From the NCBI RefSeq assembly GCF_032854445.1, contig NC_088298.1, positions 11,211,504-11,275,503 of the forward strand: a DNA stretch of 64,000 bases, read 5' to 3'. This stretch comes from Liolophura sinensis. Lineage: Eukaryota; Mollusca; Polyplacophora; Chitonida; Chitonidae. Shown here in pieces: positions 15,374 through 53,900 of the stretch (positions within the stretch are counted from its first letter, which is position 1; the number at the start of each line of letters is the position of its first letter). Under the pieces are notes generated by a model, which was not told the DNA's origin, ran no database searches, and saw only the letters and a program-made list of their open reading frames with translations. The translations under genes were made by a program, and so were the position numbers.

Positions 15374-18154
15374 ATGGCGGATTCAAGTGAAGACGAACTA
15401 TTGTTGCTAGACAGTGTTTTGCCGAAAATTATCCTATGAAAACGCAAAAGAATGGGCGTTCATGAGATAAATAAAAGGAGGCGAATGGAAGGTGAATATC
15501 ATCACTTGTTTCCTTTGCTTAAAAGGAGCCCTTCTCGTTTCCAGTCATACTTGAGAATGAGCCAAGAGACATTCAAGTATATCTTAGAAAAAATTGAACC
15601 AAAGATAACAAAGAACTGGTGCAACTGGCACCAACAACCAATTCTGCCAGAGGAGCGTCTAGTTATTACGCTCAGGTGAGTCACCCTTAGTTAAAACGTA
15701 TGTGTATATACAGTTATATATATAAGTATGAAGTAATAACTGTAAATATATATTCATGCATACACAATGAACTAAGACTGTGTAAACGTGTATCATAAAG
15801 TTTATTGGTCTCCATAATGAACTACAACAGGTAAATCTCGTTTGTTTTAAACTTATGGTTGAGGACCTTTTAGGAGAGAAGAATAGGATTAGAAAGGTTG
15901 TTACTCACAAAAGACAATAAACAAACAGAGCAAACAGCCAACAAACTCAGAAACTATCTTAGTTATAGAATGATTATATAAAATCAACAACATAGATGTT
16001 TAAAAAAGATCACTGTTCGTAAAGAATAAGAATGATTTTCCACTTGCGAGAGAGAAAAAAATCATTTACGCCTAACTGGCATATTAAGTATCTTGTGTAA
16101 AATACAATTTGAGTACAACAACATTAAGGATCATTTGATGACTCTTTGTCTTCAGCACTCTAAATGAATGTACCTGGTGTAGAAATGATAACAGCTGAAA
16201 AAATAAACCAACATAAAGATTACAACATATTAACAAAAACGCTGCTTAATATCTTTTGTTCAGGCGTTGACAGATATCTTAACGATCATAATGAAAACAA
16301 TTAGTACTGGAAATGATGAGAGTCTGGCTGAGTGGTGTAGGAATCAATGCTATTAGGTGTTGAACCTGTGCTATAGCTTTGGTAAGACAATGCTGGCGAT
16401 GTGCTATCTCGCAATTGTACATCCAGATCTTGAGGTTGGCTTGTGTACGGTTGTGAACGTTGTTGTACTGTTGGTGGGTATACAAACTCTTGCAGAACTG
16501 ACTGTATTCGATTGCGAACGCAGAGTTTCAGGTGCTCAGGGACCATTTTCATGTATGGGTATAATGATTTGAGGAATTGGAAGTCAGCATCATTTGTTTG
16601 CTCGGCATTTTTTCTTTTTTGACTTAAGTATTGAAGTTTTCTTTCTTCTATATCTATCAGTTCCCTGTAACTGTCCGAGCTGTCTCGACTGCGTTTTTTT
16701 GGGGGTCCTGCTCTTGTGTTTGTACGTTTACTCGACGGAGGCCCCGGAGAAAACTCCTGGAACGGCCCAGGCTCTGGTGCTTCAAAGGCTGTAGGATTGT
16801 CAAATGTGTCCGGTCCTTGACTTTCCACATTGCTGCCCTGGGTGTCTACTTCTGTTGCAGACTCATCCGCAATCCCCGGGCTTGGTTGATTACCTTCAAA
16901 GTTATCCAGATCTAGGGAGTCGAATGAAGTTCTCGGCGCAACAATATCTTTCAAAAAGAGAAGCTGATTGAAAAACTGCCACTTTGATTGTGGGCGATTG
17001 CTTGCAGCGTCTCCTGATCTTGGCACAGACCTTTTATTGTATTCTGTCGCAAAGTAGTCTCGAAGGGACTTCCATTTGTTCTTCAGTGCAGTTTCTGAAA
17101 ACAAAAAAATTAACAGTACATTATTATTTATGATATAGTGCTTGCATACAATATTATTGTCAATGATGAAAGTTCACATAAACTTAGTCATAATGATTGC
17201 CCCATTCCAGCAAGTCAAATATATATATCACAATTCAAAAGTCGCTTTCAGAGACACAACTAATATGATGAACGTCTTTTTTTCAGATTTCTTGCAACCG
17301 GTTCATCTTTTAAGACCCTTGCCTCCAACTTTCGGGTGGGTGCCTCCACTGTAGCACACGTTGTGTCTGAAACTGTTACTGCTATATGGGATGAGCTGAA
17401 ACCAGTGCATATGCCCTCTCCAACCAGGGAAACATTCCTATCGGCTTCTGATGACTTTTACAATCTTTGGAATTTCCCAAACTGCTTAGGAGCGATAGAC
17501 GGAAAGCATGTTCGAATCCGTTGTCCCAGCAAATCAGGATCCATGTTTTATAACTACAAAAGATATTTCTCAATAGTGTTGCAGGCTGTTGTTGATGCTC
17601 ATTACAAATTTCTGACAATCAACGTTGGCGGACATGGGAAACAAAGCGATGGAGGTACTTTTCAAGCCTCGGGCCTTTATCGTGCTCTTGTACAAGAAAA
17701 ACTGCATATACCAGAGCCTACAGCCCTGCCAAACTCCAAGGTCGTGGCCCCATTTGTGTTCATTGCTGACGAGGCATACCCACTAATCACTCATGTTTTG
17801 AAACCCTACAGTGGAACAAATCTCCCTCTTGATGAAAACTGCTTCAACAAGAGATTGTCAAGATGTAGAAAAACCGTGGAATGTGCGTTTGGAATTTTGG
17901 TAGCAAAATGGCGTTTGCTAAACAAAGAAATTGAGACAGACGTGCTGCTTGCCGATCGCATTGTAAAATGTGTTTGTGTCCTGCATAACACTATAATAGA
18001 CAAAGAAGGCATGGTGCAAAACCTCACCGAAGTTTCGGTTGAAAACCAAGGCATAATTTGGGACCGTGTTGGGAGGCCATGTAATGATTCAAAAACTGTT
18101 AGGGATGTTTTTAAAGCATACTTCAGTAGATATCCTCTGCAATATATTCAATAG
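15374..18154 (+). CDS. Harbinger DDE transposase, two exons
   Basis: Exon 1 runs to 15675 and exon 2 is 17287-18154 (stop TAG). The GT-AG junction restores frame through ITLR-FLATGSSF, a typical Harbinger passage. Counted from ATG 15452 the protein is about 363 residues. The DDE residues are in place: D in CLGAIDGKHV (~146), D in FIADEAYPL (~236) and E in KTVECAFG (~273). An ATG at 15374 in the same frame opens with MADSSEDELLLLDSVLP, the usual acidic N-terminus of this family, but an in-frame TGA at 15437-15439 cuts it off. Either the N-terminus is lost or translation starts at 15452. The enzyme cuts and joins element DNA in the nucleus and normally needs the accessory protein for import and end binding. 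The 1.6-kb intron contains the main exon of that antisense gene. Confidence 0.9.
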
Positions 18155-18627: not shown

Positions 18628-19095
18628 TTTGGTCGGACTTTCAGAAGAGAAAACACACACTGCACTTGCCAGATCGTGACTAGACAACACGTGGGGGGCA
18701 CCAAAACACGCTTGCTCGCGATAAAGAATTAACTTTTGATTCTTTACGCTTTCCAAGCGTCGCTTGACATCGCAGGCGCGATAAAGCGAGCGTGCTTTTT
18801 GTGCGGCACAAGCAAATTCTGAACGACATTACAAGTGCTTGATTTATCGCGCTCGCTTTTATCGCGAGCAAGCGTTCTTTTTGTGCGCAGACTAACACAA
18901 GTCAGAATGAGTACCGCACTTACTTGCAAGATGGTAAGCCAAGATGGTAAGCCCTTGAGGGCATAATTATATATCGTTGTGTTTTGCAGCAGACAGGTAA
19001 CAGTTTCGTGCAATAATTACTTCTTTTTCTTCATAGCTTAATTTGTTCTTGTAAACATAATTAAGACGTGCGGCATAGCGAGAAAATACCAGAGC

Positions 19096-27700: not shown

Positions 27701-30700
27701 TGTGGGTATTGTAAGGGCTATGTAAAATTGTGGCCAAGAGCAAACTGAAAAGAAAAATAAAAACAATGAGCCATGTACACAATAGTACTTTCCATGTAGT
27801 GCATTTCACCTGAAGCGTAAAGCTTTTTGTCAACAGAATATTCTTGAATACAGCACATGACACCAATCATATAAATAAATGCAGGTTGACAGGGAAAGGA
27901 TTTTTGATCAGGTTAAGCAAACAGGTATTTTAAAATTAACTTTGAGAGAAAAGTAAAATTAACATTTTTAATAGGGCCCTGTTTGAGGGTCGGTGAGGTT
28001 GCACTCAGTAAACTTGTTTGATGTATGAGCCTGGCTCAAGCAGTAATTCTCACAAGGATATTTATGCATGCACTTTGTAAAACTTGTGTATATTGGAAGT
28101 TGCTTATCTTCAAAATGTCTATGTATTTGTCTTTTCAGGCTCCTCGAGACTGGTGAAGATGGCCCCCATGTTACTAGTGACAGCACTGCCCCTTGTCCCA
28201 TATGCTTTATTTCCCATAGCGTGGGTACATTTTAGATGAATTTTACTGTGGCAAAAACTGTTGACGTATAGCGCGTCAGTTAGAGGTAGATAAACTTAAT
28301 TTGAACATTTTATTGGCAGGTCGTATTGTCTGCTTATGACATCTCTCAAACCGGCCCTGATAGCACAGTTGGTAGAGTGTCCGCTTTGAGAGCGGGAGAT
28401 CCAGGGTCAATCCTGGATCAGGTCACACCTATGACCATAAAAGAGGAAGTTGTAACTTGCTCGCTTGGCGTTCAGCATGAAGGGGATAGTGCAACGACTG
28501 GTTGACCCGTATCAGTATAATGGCTCAGGCGTGGCAAATTACTTGCCTGGGGGTAAGGCGTCTCAGTGACGCAGCACTAAATAAAAGAGCGGTGGAAATC
28601 CGTCCTGCAACAAGGAGGCATATTGCATGCATCCTAAGAATTCCTTCGTCGTCATGTGACTGAAAAATTGTTAAGTATGACGTTAAACCCCAATCACTCA
28701 CTCACATCTCTCAAATGCATATGCTGAGCTACACCAGGTCTACACAATGAGATGTCTGTTTGGTAAACACAATATCAGATTTATAAATATTATAGAATTA
28801 AATAATAAACACATAGGTCTCTCAAATTATGTCTCCTAGAGCCAAGATATGATACCTCAGTAGATTGAGTAGAGTATCAGGTCTATATCACTTGCCTGAT
28901 TCTTTAATTATTTATTTATTTATTTATGTATTTATTTATTTATGTATGTATTTATGTATGTATTTATGTATGTATTTATGTATGTATTTATGTATTTATT
29001 TATGTATTTATCTATTTATTTATTTGATTGATGTTTTACGCCGTACGACGGTGACCAGCATTATGATGAGAGGAAACCGGACTCTAACCCAGGACCATCC
29101 ACAGGTTTTTGGCAAACCATTTGCCTGATGAGGATTTATTATTATTACACCTCATGAAATAATAAAGTATATTCAGTGTGTATTGTACTAGAGTATACGG
29201 GATGAATTTACACTGTATTATTTGTTTTTCCAACCACAATGCTGAACACTGTCGTGTAAGTACGGTTTTCTTGAGTACAGCACAAAACCCAAAATAAATG
29301 AAACAAATTGCTTTTCCATTTCAGATATTTGTTCCCAAGATATTTTTTGACGTCTCATTTCTGGACAGATGAACAGAAGACGGAGTTTTCCCGATTAGCC
29401 CACAAGAAAAGGATCCAGCATTTTCCTGCCATTTTAGATTATCTTCATAACCAGTGCCGTTATGTGGAGAGGTCAAAGGATAAAGATTTGCTCAAGTCAC
29501 AACTTAGAAGAGTAAGACACAGATAACCCTTAAAACAAATTTGACCAGTAAAGTATAAATGTAGATGCAGTTTGAAAATCTACGGTATATGACCTACAGT
29601 TTCGTCCCAAAAGAGCATTTTTAGTGGCAAATAAATGTCATAAAAAGTGTCTGTTCATGTTGAAACTTGCATTTGTGTAGAATATCTTCCAGTGTTCCAA
29701 ACAAACCTCAAAAGGCCTTTGATAGAGGGCTTCATGGTTCAGTTGGTTAGCATGCTAGCCAAGAGTAATGACCCAGGAGTCTCTCACCAATGCGGTCGCT
29801 GTGAGTTCAAGTCCAGCTCATGATGGCTTCCTCTCCGGCCGTATGTGAGAAGGTCTGACAGCAACCTGCGGATGGTCGTGGGTTTCCCCCAGGCTGTGCC
29901 CTGTTTCCACCCACCATAATGCTGGCCGCCGTCGTATAAGTGAAATATTCTTGAGTACAGCTTAAACACCAATCAAATAAATAAATAAATAAATCAAAAG
30001 GCCTTTGATGGGGGCCTTCATGGCTCAGTTGGTTAATGCACTAGCGCAGAGTAATGACCCAGGAGTCTCTCACCAGTGCGGTCGCTGTGAGTTCAAGCCC
30101 AGCTCATGCTGGCTTCCTCTCTGGCTGTACGTGGGAAGGTCTACTAGCAACTTGCGAATGGTCGTGGGTTTCCTCCGGGCTCTGCCGTGTTTCCCACCCA
30201 CCATAGTGCTGGCTGCCGTCATATAAGTGAAATGTTCTTGAGAACGGCATAAAACATCAATCAAATGAATAAATAAAATCAAAAGGCCTTTGTATGATCA
30301 GTAGAACTCAGTAAGACTTTTAAGACTAGAAGCTATTGTTCTGGTGCCAGTTCTACAAAGTAGCTGTAAACTCTGGCTAACTTTCATGAAAATATATTAT
30401 GTAGATATATGTCGTTACGGCAAATAGCATTGCGACAGATTCGTAAAATTGACCCCTGGTTGCGGTAGGGGCATCTATGAACTTCTCAGGAATTGTAGCA
30501 TGCCTGGATCAATAATAACATTCCTCTAATGTGCTAGAACATCTAAGTGAGGATTTGTTGAGGATTTGTTGAGTCAGCAGTAATTTATGCAGTAATAGTA
30601 TTTCTACAGGACTTACAGATGGAGAATATTTAGTATAGCGCTGAAATGATGCATGTACAGAGCAGTCTCTGTCATGTCTTTTTTCCTATTACCTTATTGT

Positions 30701-33700
30701 GAATTCTGAAATATTTTTACCTGTAAAAATTATAATTTTGTATTTTCTCTCTTGTTGAGAATGTCATTGTAATGATGATTTGCCGTATGCTATTTTTATT
30801 ATACTTTTACACTTTTAGTTTTTATACTTTAATCCAGACTGCTTGTGTTGTCTTGTTTGGAAATCTGGAATGTAAGGATTTGTTCATCTTTTTGGGTTTT
30901 TTTTGTTTTTTGTTTTCTTCAGCTGGAAAGATTTGAAAGCCTGAAGGTGGACGATATTCTAAGGATAAAGCCATATTTTGAGAAATTCCCTTACCAGCTG
31001 GAGCGGCTGTCCATAGCACATTTGGTAAGGGCTGAAAATTATATGTGTATACAAATGTAGCTCTGGAAATTCCCTTACCAGCTGGAGCGGCTATCCATAG
31101 CACATTTGGTAAGGGCTGAAAATTATATGTGTATACAAATGTAGCTCTGGAAATTCCCTTACCAGCTGGAGTGGCTATCCATAGCACATTTGGTATGGGC
31201 TGAGATTTGTATGTGTATACAAATGTAGCTCTGGAAATTCCCTTACCAGCATTGGGTAAGGACTGAGATTTATGTGTGTATACAAATGTAGCTCTGGAAA
31301 TTCCCTTACCAGCTGGAGCGGCTATCCATAGCACATTTGGTAAGGGCTGGGATTTATGTCTGTATACAAATGTAGCTCTAGAAATTCCCTTACCAGCTGG
31401 AGCGGCTATCCATAGCACATTTGGTAAGGACTGAGATTTATGTGTGTATACAAATGTAGCTCTAGAAATTCCCATACCAGCTGGAGTGACTATCCATAGC
31501 ACATTTGGTAAGGGCTGAGATTTATATGTGTATACAAATGTAGCTCTAGAAATTCCCTTACCAGCTGGAGCGGCTATCCATAGCACATTTGGTAAGGGCT
31601 GAGATTTATGTGTGTATACAAATGTAGCTCTAGAAATTCCCATACCAGCTGGAGTGGCTATCCATAGCACATTTGGTAAGGGCTGAGATTTATGTGTGTA
31701 TACAAATGTAGCTCTAGAAATTCCCTTACTGGCTGGAGCGGCTATCCATAGCACATTTGGTAAGGACGGAGATTTATGTGTGTATGCAAATGTAGTTCTA
31801 GAAATTCCCATACCAGCTGGAGGGGCTATCCGTAGCACATTTGGTAAGGGCTGAGATTCACATGTGCATACAAATGTAGCTCTACTCTCGCTGTAAGTCC
31901 AGCTCATGCTGGCTTCCTGTCCAGCCACACGTTGGGTGGTGTGTTAGCAACCTGCGGATGGTCGGGCGATTCCCCCAGGGCTCTGCCATGGTATAAGTGA
32001 AATATTCTAGAGTACAGCGTAAAACACCAGTGAAATAAATAAATGAACAAATATATCAAATGTAGCTCAGTTATGGCCCTTTAGATTGTTAACATGTCAA
32101 GACATTCCCATACCAGCTTGGGTGACTATCAGAAAATTAAATATATATTTAATATATAATTAATATTTATTTAAATATATGAAAGTATTGCTCCAGTCCC
32201 AACTGAAACTGCATAGAAATATTAAAAAGATATGATAGAAATCCAAGGGAACAGATCTGACACCATGGTTCGAAGGAATGTCAATGAATAACAATATTTT
32301 ACCCTAAAACTGAAGAGTCATCAAACAAAAAATCTTCAGCGGTTTCCATACAATTTTCCTGGTTTGATATGATATTTTTTATGTGATGTTGAACCAGGTA
32401 GATATGACGTCAGGTGTGGCAATTTTGCTGTGGAATGATGTAAATAGCATTTGAAAGTACAGCGTCAGTAACAGTTGATGCCAAGTGTTGGTGTGTGGTG
32501 TCACACCAGGCTTAAAGGAAAAAGACAGGCATAAAGGGAACTTTTATTCTGGTTTTTTTTTTCACCATATTTTCTTGTGGAAAGATTAATACACAGTAAA
32601 ATATTTGCACAAATTAGGAAAACAGTTTAAACTATCTTAAACTTTGCTTTGACACTGATAAAGATTGTCCACAGATTTGACAAGAAATAAAGAAAATTTA
32701 TCTTCTTTATAGCACTTGTTTAATACAGAACTCCAGCGGCACTGACCGTGCTGCGGTATTTTTACTGCGACTTAGTCAGAAAGCCATAAGGATGACGTTA
32801 TACACTAACCAGACAAATAAATAAATGTTTTCTATTAGTCAGAATTGTTTGTCACTGTATACCTTGGCTTAAAATGTAAAGATGGCCTGCACTTTTCTCG
32901 TGATACCCTTGACAAAAAATTTACATATATTAAGGAAAGCTAAATGTACATGTTTATGTTGAATGATATGTTGTTGTTTGCAAACATCATCCGTTCGTTT
33001 CACAACTTTCGTGTTATTTCTCTTAGCGTCATTTAGGGAGGAGTTTAGGGATGTCCCTGCGACGCTCCAAGCTGCTGGAAGAAGCTGTGTTACTTCAGCA
33101 TATAGACAAGGCTATGGTGAGAGAGGGAATTGACAAGATGACAGACACAGAACTAGAGAAGGTCAGTCCGCTCTTGCCCACCCTGGATATGAAGGATGTG
33201 ATGTTTATTTATTTATGTGATTGCAGTTTCAGTTCCAAAAGAAGCTAAGTAGAAAGATTGAAAATACATGAAGGATACCTATATATGGAACTGACCTGAC
33301 ACCATTGTTCACAAAGATTTACCAATGAATGAAATTAACTATTTAACCCAAATAAGTGAAGATTCTTCCAGAACAAAAAAATATTCGTCAGTTTCTGTGA
33401 AATTTTCCTGATGAGGCCTGATAATATTTCCTGCGTGACAGTGACGTTACGGTGGAATGATGTCAGGTGCATTTCGCAAGTGTGACGTCATTTGTGGCTA
33501 TATGTCAGGGATGGGTGACATCAAGTGTTCTGGCATGTTGTCACCCCAAGCAAAATTGAAAACCACAGAAAACTTTTGTTTCCGTTTTATCTTCTGAAAC
33601 TAAGAGCAATGGTTTTATGAGAATGTAGTTCGATCCTTATGATTTAAGCCAGCTTAAGCCTGACAAACAAGTCTTGAAACTGGAGTATCTCTTTAAGGCC

Positions 33701-50930: not shown

Positions 50931-53900
50931 TCAAGCAATGGCTGTTTCAACCAATGATTCCTTAATAAGCTCACCAAAATTAGGCTTGCCGTCTATGGGC
51001 TTTAGGCTAGCACTTGTGAAGTTTCCCTGGGAGTCAGAATGGGAGTCATGCGCGACTGATATCTCTGAGGCAAACTCAATCCCAAGGTTGCCCGATAATG
51101 CCACACTTTTCATGTCGACAGATGTTGGAGTCTGAAGATGATTGTCGCTTTTTTCGAAGTTAAACAGCGATTTTGAGAGGTCAGCGGAATCGTTTTCCGC
51201 GACACCCAGTGGGTTACCGTTGACCTCTGTGTACACAGGTGACCTGGACGAGTCGCTGCCAATGCCGCTGCAGGTGTTGTCTGTGGTCTGCGGAGGGCTT
51301 AGAGGAAAACCGTCCAGGCTACCACCACATAGGACATCTGAATCAGAGTGCAGGGATCCTGTGGAACCTGGCGTAAAGGGAGCTAATTCACCGTTCACGT
51401 CTTTGCTCAGATTTTGATTCTTCATGTGGGTGGATATTCCTGGGCACCTCTCAGCCAACTGATCAGAAGTTGTGTCTGTCATTGTAGTGTATGAGAAAGG
51501 AGGCTGGGAGGGGTGGGATTCAGTGGGCGGGGGATACGCCTTGGTGCATGGCGCATAGTTCGCGGATTCACCGTTTTCGGGCCAAGCTGGCAAAACAGCT
51601 GACTGGACACTCTCTGCAAACTCTGCAGGACGAACGCCATTCAAAACACCAGCCATTGGCTCAAGCTTAAACATGCCTGGAGCAGGAGAGTTGTTGAGAT
51701 CAATGTATTTCTGAGGCTCTGATTGGGTGACAGATCCTCCATTATCTGTGCAGAAACTCGCTGCGCTGCCGTTGGCTGTTGTGCTGGAGTCAAAAGTTGA
51801 CAGACTCTGATATGACTTGTTGTAGTTATTGCTATTATCAATGCTGTTTTCACTTGAACAGTCACTGCTCTCAGAGTATGAGCTTTCCTCCTGTTTAAAA
51901 TGGAACATGCTTGTCGTGTTGTCTGCCGTGTAAAATTCCTCCTCATTGTCGCTAAAAAGAAGAACCCGGGGAAGGGGCGACGCGATGCCGCCTGCCTGAG
52001 GCGCAATGTTCTGAAGACTCACCCCGTGCAAGTCTGGCGTGAAGTGTTGCTGTTGTTGTGGCAGGCAGCGCTGCTCATTTTCCAAAGTCCTGGCATACTG
52101 CGCCTGCGCTTCCTGCATCATGACATGACAGATTTCAGAATTCTGGCAATCTCTACAGCTGCCTTTCTCATTGCTATTGTATTCCCACTGGTCTTCATCC
52201 AGATTCTCCTCTGTCGGCACAAGCTCTTTCGCTTGCTCTTCCTTTTGCGTTTGCGCTGTGCCATTGTGTAAGGACTGCCGCTGGGCTTTCAAAGCTTTTG
52301 TTTCAGCGTCTTTCCGCTCAAGCTCCAGCCTCATGAGCGTGTGAATAAAATGTGTTCGGACCCTGATCGGGTTGAATTCGATGCGACCTGCATGATTTCC
52401 GCAACCATCCTTCGTGCAACCGCACGGAAATGACAAGCGATCCACTTGGCACTTAATCCCCGCTAAACTGCAGGCGCAAGTGGCAGGGTCGCAAAACACT
52501 TTGCAATCGCAGCCGCACACTTCACGTGATGTGCGAATCGTCTTGCACTCTTCTTTTTCTTGGCCGTCTATTTTCTTGACGCCTGATTGGCGCAGCAACA
52601 AGCGCCTCTGGCGGATGGGGACTGGTTGCAGGAAGTAGTAGTCGTCCACCTCGGGGTCGCTTTCAGAGTCACTGTCGGAGTCGTGATCGGAGTCACTCTT
52701 CTCCTCTAGAGTCACTGGCTTGGAGGGCTTTAGGAGGTGCACGAGTTTACCTTGCTGCTTCTGTTCCTCCACGATCATCTTGTGGATGCGCCTCTGCTCC
52801 TTGGAGTACTCTCCCAGAGTGAAATCTTCCTCATACGTGTGCTTGTCTCCCATACCTGAAAAACCAACAACCAACATCAAATTACCTGTCAGTAAGTCTG
52901 CTCCCTTACAAGCCTGATCAAAAGTGAAAAATGAGACACCGACAAAAGTTATTGTGAATTTTGTGTAAGCCTCTCACAACAGTGATGGCTCCCACATGTA
53001 GATCTGCATGTAATCAGCCAACTGATTTTACACTGTTCAGACCAGTTTATGAAAAAATAAGGCAAATTCCTACTTCTGACTATGTCAAGAATATCTCACA
53101 GCGCAAAATCCAATATCAACCACAGTTACACGTAGCCAGAAATCAACTTAACAAATGCCTTTCTCACCAATTACTCCAGATGGATTCAAACAAAAACCTA
53201 CAATTAGAAAACATGTTAATTTTCACATTTTGGTGAGGGCCAGAGGAAAAACGGTCCCACAGTACTGTACATAGACTTACCCAGAGTTAATCCCCTCTCA
53301 CTGGGAATGCAGGTAAAACCTTGAATATGAGGGAAGTAACTTACCAAGAGTTGATCCCCCCTCTCTGGGAATGCAGGTAAAACCTTGAATATGAGGAAAG
53401 TAACTTACCATGAGTTGATCCCCCGTCACTGGGAATGCAGGTAAAACCTTGAATATGAGGGAAGTAACTTACCAAGAGTTGATCCCCCCTCACTGGGAAT
53501 GCAGGTAAAGTCTTGAATATGAGGGAAGTAACTTACCAAGAGTTGATCCACCCTCACTGGGAATGCAGGTAAAACCTTGAATATGAGGGAAGTAACTTAC
53601 CAAGAGTTGATCCCCCCTCACTGGTAATGCAGGTAAAGTCTTGAATATAAGGGAAGTAACTTACCATGAGTTGATCCCCCCTCACTGGGAATGCAGGTAA
53701 AACCTTGAATATGAGGGAAGTAACTTACCAAGAGTTGATCCCCCCTCACTGGGAATGCAGGTAAAACCTTGAATACGTGGGAAGTAATACACTTTCACAC
53801 CTTCAAAATTCACGGAATGTTTTGGCTTTTTGGATTTCTGGAAACATCCTGTTGAAAATAAAAATAAACAAGCAGATCTCATCAAACATTGGTTGGCATA

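Follow-up and report, generated by a model that had tools for sequence, protein, structure and literature searches.

Tandem repeats on exon-intron boundaries were previously reported from human genes in segmental duplications, where such repeats, with units of 30 bp on average, can alter splicing and form introns (PMC2812944). Tandem duplication has also been connected with intron gain, in ATP2A1, in fission yeast and in the potato RdRp (PMC4974935, PMC3629103, PMC3443670), and intronic minisatellites of C. elegans have been linked to multiple splicing decisions (PMC4039745). Titles and abstract openings in the open-access literature, queried with a limited set of terms, revealed no mollusc report of arrays built from an exon end and its splice site. 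Here we examined such arrays in a chiton whose published assembly originally carried the name Liolophura japonica, since corrected to L. sinensis (PMC11068029, PMC12441733). All coordinates of the two window genes refer to the window, the whole stretch of 64,000 nucleotides that was analysed.

An array of 84-bp units at an exon border of a LETMD1-like gene in this window is probably a minisatellite specific to this locus, which began when a tandem duplication chanced to span the exon-intron border. What we observe is that copy 1 is, by reading frame, the working exon end and that the remaining copies are intronic. As in the human boundary repeats, the tandem repeats sit on the border itself; the chiton units, in the cases seen, measure 32 to 84 bp against the human average of 30 bp, and while the human repeats change gene structure with transcript support, the chiton exon appears unchanged and its copies would be intronic decoys (PMC2812944). 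Common to this locus and the cases of intron gain is a duplication that takes in exonic sequence together with splice signals, sometimes several times (PMC4974935, PMC3629103, PMC3443670). However, in the intron-gain model the duplication provides the splice sites of the new intron, whereas in the chiton one border is copied into the intron and the other lies outside the array. The locus resembles the C. elegans case in that intronic minisatellites are related to splice choice, but the opening of that paper's abstract does not mention an exon end and splice site as content of the units, both of which the chiton units contain (PMC4039745). In our best reading the layout, found in a minisatellite-rich genome, varies on tandem-duplication biology that is already known, and nature has set up in it an experiment on how splice sites are chosen.

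The host gene lies on the forward strand, with a LETM1-type ribosome-binding domain spread over three exons. The upstream exon (29325..29511, donor at 29512, limits judged by eye) falls in an open reading frame at 29302-29523 that matches the Pfam domain LETM1_RBD with E=1.5e-8. The exon that carries the array, called exon 6 in the original prediction, occupies 30923..31024 (102 bp, 34 codons, LERFES...LSIAHL); its frame is open throughout, its acceptor is good (TTTTCTTCAG) and its donor is the GTAAGG at 31025..31030. This exon alone has no Pfam match, and the next exon (33027..33161, phase 0, beginning RHLGRSLGMS, limits judged by eye) lies in an open reading frame, 33027-33245, that alone matches LETM1_RBD weakly (E=0.0015, 18.5 bits, under the cut-off of 25.3). 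The host exon bridges the two LETM1_RBD exons, and the joined product of 168 amino acids covers profile positions 34-185 with E=2.5e-20. By exclusion, a LETMD1-like identity is plausible for the gene, since a second LETM1 gene on a different contig has stronger matches (74.6 bits, against 32.1 for the window gene). A PDB search with the joined exons returned a chance-level match alone (E=0.64).

By TRF and explicit splitting into units, the array at 30982..31884 on the forward strand consists of 11 copies, starting at 30982, 31066, 31150, 31234, 31297, 31381, 31465, 31549, 31633, 31717 and 31801. Unit length is 84 bp in 10 of the 11; the copy at 31234 has lost 21 bp and measures 63 bp. Exon and intron each make up half of copy 1, which comprises 43 exonic bases (30982-31024), GTAAGG and 35 bp of intron. 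The original prediction, which described about ten repeats of an 84-bp unit made of exon end, GTAAGG donor and intron, was thus borne out, at eleven copies; the anatomy it gave also stood, with its estimates of about 41 exonic and about 36 intronic bases replaced by measured lengths of 43 and 35. The exon-derived 43 bp and the donor are present in 10 of the 11 units, the 63-bp unit being without 21 bp of them, and nine of the ten intronic copies retain GTAAGG, with GTATGG in copy 3. The units stand head-to-tail, and compared with copy 1 the nine full-length intronic copies each show 1 to 11 differences. With near-identical tandem units at what is, as far as the genome search described next reaches, a single locus, the array is a minisatellite, and it spans an exon border as well. 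When the genome (609,464,459 bases, 632 contigs) was searched with window positions 30900-31900, the sole match was the locus itself; the search passes over very common words and scores its best candidates only. Within the reach of that search, the single match leads us to reject a dispersed repeat as source of the unit.

A 5'-truncated SINE-like element at 31883..32056 on the forward strand is inserted in the array and is not part of its unit. It aligns with a longer copy at 30082-30283 and is flanked by a 12-bp target-site duplication, CAAATGTAGCTC, at 31871-31882 and 32057-32068. Past the element, at 32101..32138 on the same strand, lies a degenerate 12th unit, with a local alignment score to the last unit of 41, a value that is uncontrolled. 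The SINE-like insertion split the array at a later time and left a worn 12th copy beyond it. Assembly error is an unlikely source of the array, because the published assembly is built from HiFi reads with a mean length of 8,347 bp, which far exceeds 0.9 kb (PMC11068029).

The ten intronic copies (31066..31884, forward strand) carry putative donors at 31109, 31193 (weak), 31256, 31340, 31424, 31508, 31592, 31676, 31760 and 31844. Nine of the ten score no more than 1 bit away from the real donor; splice scores were computed from textbook frequencies, and the acceptor score is home-made. Read-through past the real donor would give VRAENYMCIQM and then a stop, an in-frame TAG 12 codons beyond the donor. 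Most simply, copy 1 would be the sole working copy, and we infer that the extra donors are decoys.

Two other readings of the locus give the copies, or the duplication itself, a role in making the transcript. Under one, the copies would act as cassette exons of 16 or 9 residues, or as poison exons that tune LETMD1 output. Nine of the ten intronic donors equal the real one, as this reading would ask, and the original prediction had noted 48 bp, in frame and worth 16 residues, from an upstream AG to each donor. We confirmed that spacing from the TGTAG to the donor in nine of the ten intronic copies, the copy with the deletion having 27 bp, but the open frame did not hold up: a leucine codon followed by a stop (CTC TAG) closes six of the ten segments at codon 2, leaving copies 2-5 alone open, one of which encodes 9 residues rather than 16. 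On the home-made scale the TGTAG acceptors score from -0.7 to -2.8, where the real acceptor reaches 7.0, and these weak acceptors together with the six stops lead us to reject the 16-residue cassettes. An inner TTACCAG acceptor would yield 27-nt in-frame exons of 9 residues, LERLSIAHL, that are stop-free in 7 of the 10 intronic copies, but this type too is weak, at 0.3 to 1.6 against 7.0 on the same home-made scale. Moreover, inserts of either kind would interrupt the LETM1_RBD domain, and simple arithmetic on the 84-bp unit leaves introns between full-length neighbours of 36 bp (48-nt exons) or 57 bp (27-nt exons). Judged by open frame and usable acceptor and donor, the copies thus fail as tandem cassette exons, and we consider a functional splicing array highly improbable. 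Under the other reading the intron arose by tandem duplication in the manner of Rogers. The unit does hold exon sequence and a donor, and exonic tandem duplication can create introns (PMC4974935, PMC3629103, PMC3443670), but the acceptor of the LETMD1 intron, at 33026, lies outside the array, about 0.9 kb beyond the last unit, where the sequence is unrelated, nor does the next exon copy the unit. We find such an origin scarcely credible and reject it on the position of the acceptor.

The minisatellite reading, with copy 1 working and the other copies as decoys, may not account for every feature of the units. Among the nine full-length intronic copies, minor states occupy 11 of 387 cells in the exon-derived part against 19 of 315 in the intron-derived part (Fisher P=0.04, with cells that are non-independent). 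A pure-decoy model does not predict the lower variation of the exon-derived part, but an internal stop interrupts this part in one intronic copy, and non-synonymous changes occur in others.

A second border array lies in the same window. TRF reports it at 53275..53787 on the reverse strand, with eight copies of a 64-bp unit, in a gene with CSRNP_N Pfam matches. The last 58-59 bp of the CSRNP exon (about 53848-53729, reverse strand) are repeated together with GTAAGT, and all seven intronic donors equal or exceed the real donor in strength. Elsewhere in the window we observed a divergent pair of open reading frames at 16304-18151, encoding by Pfam a MADF/BESS protein on the reverse strand and a DDE_Tnp_4 transposase on the forward strand; the pair resembles a PIF/Harbinger-type transposon. 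At 18927-18953 the sequence CAAGATGGTAAGC is doubled (13-bp unit, 2.1 copies) and resembles a duplicated donor.

For a survey of other genes, 87 exons were chosen by hand from Pfam matches before their DNA was viewed, comprising 64 kinase exons (of 138 rows in the Pfam match list), 20 myosin exons (of 81 rows) and 3 LETM1 exons. Short open frames guided the choice of the first 43 kinase exons and of nearly all myosin exons; in the second set of 21 kinase exons, frames run up to 555 codons. Flanks of 250 bp were used for the myosin exons and of about 400 bp for the kinase exons. Of 174 borders, 152 were usable (77 donors and 75 acceptors), and 22 were dropped with no scorable splice site or flank. 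An exon edge and its splice site lay within an array at 7 of the 152 borders, namely five donors (L036, L042, L064, L093 and L099) and two acceptors (L029 and L030), and so in 7 of the 87 exons. The L030 acceptor border was corrected by hand after viewing, the automatic border also being inside the array, and at L064 one array was counted from two borders. Five of the seven cases occurred in the first 43 kinase exons and two in the 20 myosin exons; the second 21 kinase exons had none. When 26 exonic bases at each border were compared with the exon's own intron, 4 of 152 reached a score of at least 26, where 0.07 would be expected from the introns of other genes, and a reverse-strand control of the same comparison gave 1 of 152. 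The original prediction that unrelated genes share this architecture therefore extends beyond LETMD1 and CSRNP to the seven sampled borders.

Within these arrays, the look-alike sites that outscore the real donor or come to within 1 bit of it numbered 2 of 5 at L036, 5 of 10 at L042, 3 of 11 at L093, 4 of 7 at L099 and 1 of 1 at L064, besides 9 of 10 at LETMD1 and 7 of 7 at CSRNP; the lists for L042, L093 and L099 include look-alike sites that do not copy the donor unit for unit, and seven look-alikes at the L029 acceptor were left unscored. In the L042 kinase exon, on the reverse strand, the real donor GTATGC is at 611 and decoys are at 676, 741, 806 and 936; these four GTAAGC decoys each score 11.0 and the real donor 8.2, which makes the exon a ready-made test of how a splice site is chosen. 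L030 is the mirror case, in which the acceptor at 416 and the start of the exon are repeated upstream, with decoys at 94, 176, 256 and 336, all four of them identical to the real acceptor across 14 bases. As decoys can be as strong as real sites, strength alone cannot decide between them if the donor used is the one that keeps the reading frame; the decision must then lie with position or exon context. This gives the set its usefulness.

Whether arrays are aimed at borders depends on how common they are elsewhere. In 20 sampled 10-kb stretches (L002-L021) we counted 67 tandem arrays, covering about 21.5% of bases. One stretch, L019, is a single 5S-like array of a 391-bp unit from end to end. 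The sampled share contrasts with the published repeat table, which puts 'other (simple repeat, microsatellite, RNA)' at 0.08% and leaves 14.04% unclassified (PMC11068029). The null for borders was drawn from the other 19 stretches as 1500 random positions with overlapping draws; L019 was likewise left out of the null for donor motifs. Arrays cover 3.9% of borders against 15.5% of random positions. Repeat content was found at 0 of 152 borders deeper in the exons (-60 to -36), at 1 of 152 at -24, at 5 of 152 at -12 and at 6 of 152 at the splice site; on the intron side it was found at 5 of 151 at +12, at 9-13 of about 150 from +24 to +84 and at 5-7 of about 112 from +120 to +180. Counting only the first array start at each border, we found seven starts in [-60,0), seven in [0,60), two at 60-120 bp and two at 120-200 bp. 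The expectation per 60-bp zone is 4.2 at the average rate; with offsets matched at random positions it becomes 5.2 and 4.9.

These counts bear on a rival account in which border-directed birth makes splice-site regions hot spots for the start of tandem arrays, for example as introns were once short, which would have placed any intronic duplication close to a border, or through some property of transcribed or spliced DNA. In its favour, the 14 starts that lie up to 60 bp from a splice site, to either side, exceed the 8.4 expected at the average rate (P=0.047), and they compare with four starts at 60-200 bp, at equal exposure (P=0.019 under a flat model, in a test devised after the data were seen). 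Among 60 random array units, 11 also held strong donor motifs, where shuffling gave 6.9 and 6 in 100 shuffles reached 11. However, the same 14 starts do not differ significantly from the 10.0 at offset-matched random positions (P=0.14), and the clustering, 14 of 18, is not significant against that control (P=0.15, two-sided), since counting of first starts falls with distance at random positions too. The seven exon-side starts, in the outer 60 bp, likewise show no significant excess over 4.2 (P=0.13) or the offset-matched 5.2 (P=0.26). Coverage at borders is below that at random positions, and the motif excess is not significant at three cut-offs (14 vs 12.9, 11 vs 6.9 and 6 vs 3.4). A mild border-related bias in array birth may exist (P=0.047 against the average rate, P=0.14 offset-matched), in a survey that would miss border enrichment up to about three-fold, but we think border-directed birth quite unlikely. 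We also regard as unlikely, if a little less so, the stronger proposal that splice borders are array-birth hot spots and that thousands of exons carry equal or stronger decoys that are ignored by position alone. The clustering of starts near splice sites is possibly a relic of formerly short introns. The original prediction took two cases about 22 kb apart to suggest a recurring process, and had named arrays at borders no more frequent than expected as the outcome that would speak against it; within the power of the sample this is what we found, neither exon-side starts nor coverage clearly exceeding random. Border arrays, at 7 of 152, likewise do not clearly recur more often than arrays start at random positions in this genome.

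The reading that we prefer, a minisatellite founded by a chance duplication across the border, would work as follows. On the donor side, a duplication would run from the last bases of the exon into the intron, and the upstream copy would stay an intact exon and donor; on the acceptor side, as the mirror case, the downstream copy would stay an intact acceptor and exon. Additional copies would land in the intron, and from anatomy and rates a border duplication would be nearly neutral, because one complete exon and splice site survives. The array could then grow in the intron by slippage or unequal exchange, with selection holding copy 1 fixed. At LETMD1 the cell must use the first donor, because use of a later one would retain the first unit and run into the in-frame TAG 12 codons on; such transcripts would probably be lost to nonsense-mediated decay. 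Since about one fifth of the sampled sequence is tandem array, border-spanning duplications should be both frequent and tolerated. The absence of arrays deeper in the sampled exons is expected if copy 1 alone is protected, and the exonic overlap in the seven sampled arrays and the two window arrays is at most one unit, as protection of copy 1 predicts.

Given their recurrence in the sample, LETMD1 and CSRNP are no mere curiosity. Border arrays are a warning to gene predictors, which may find false exon ends in them, and border-spanning tandem duplications suggest a route to longer introns without change to the protein. If the sampled rate (7 of 87 exons, 7 of 152 borders) holds, the chiton genome would contain many natural constructs with near-identical splice sites in a row; one site in each row would keep the frame, so that the rules of splice choice, whether first donor, last acceptor or exon definition, may be readable from ordinary RNA data.
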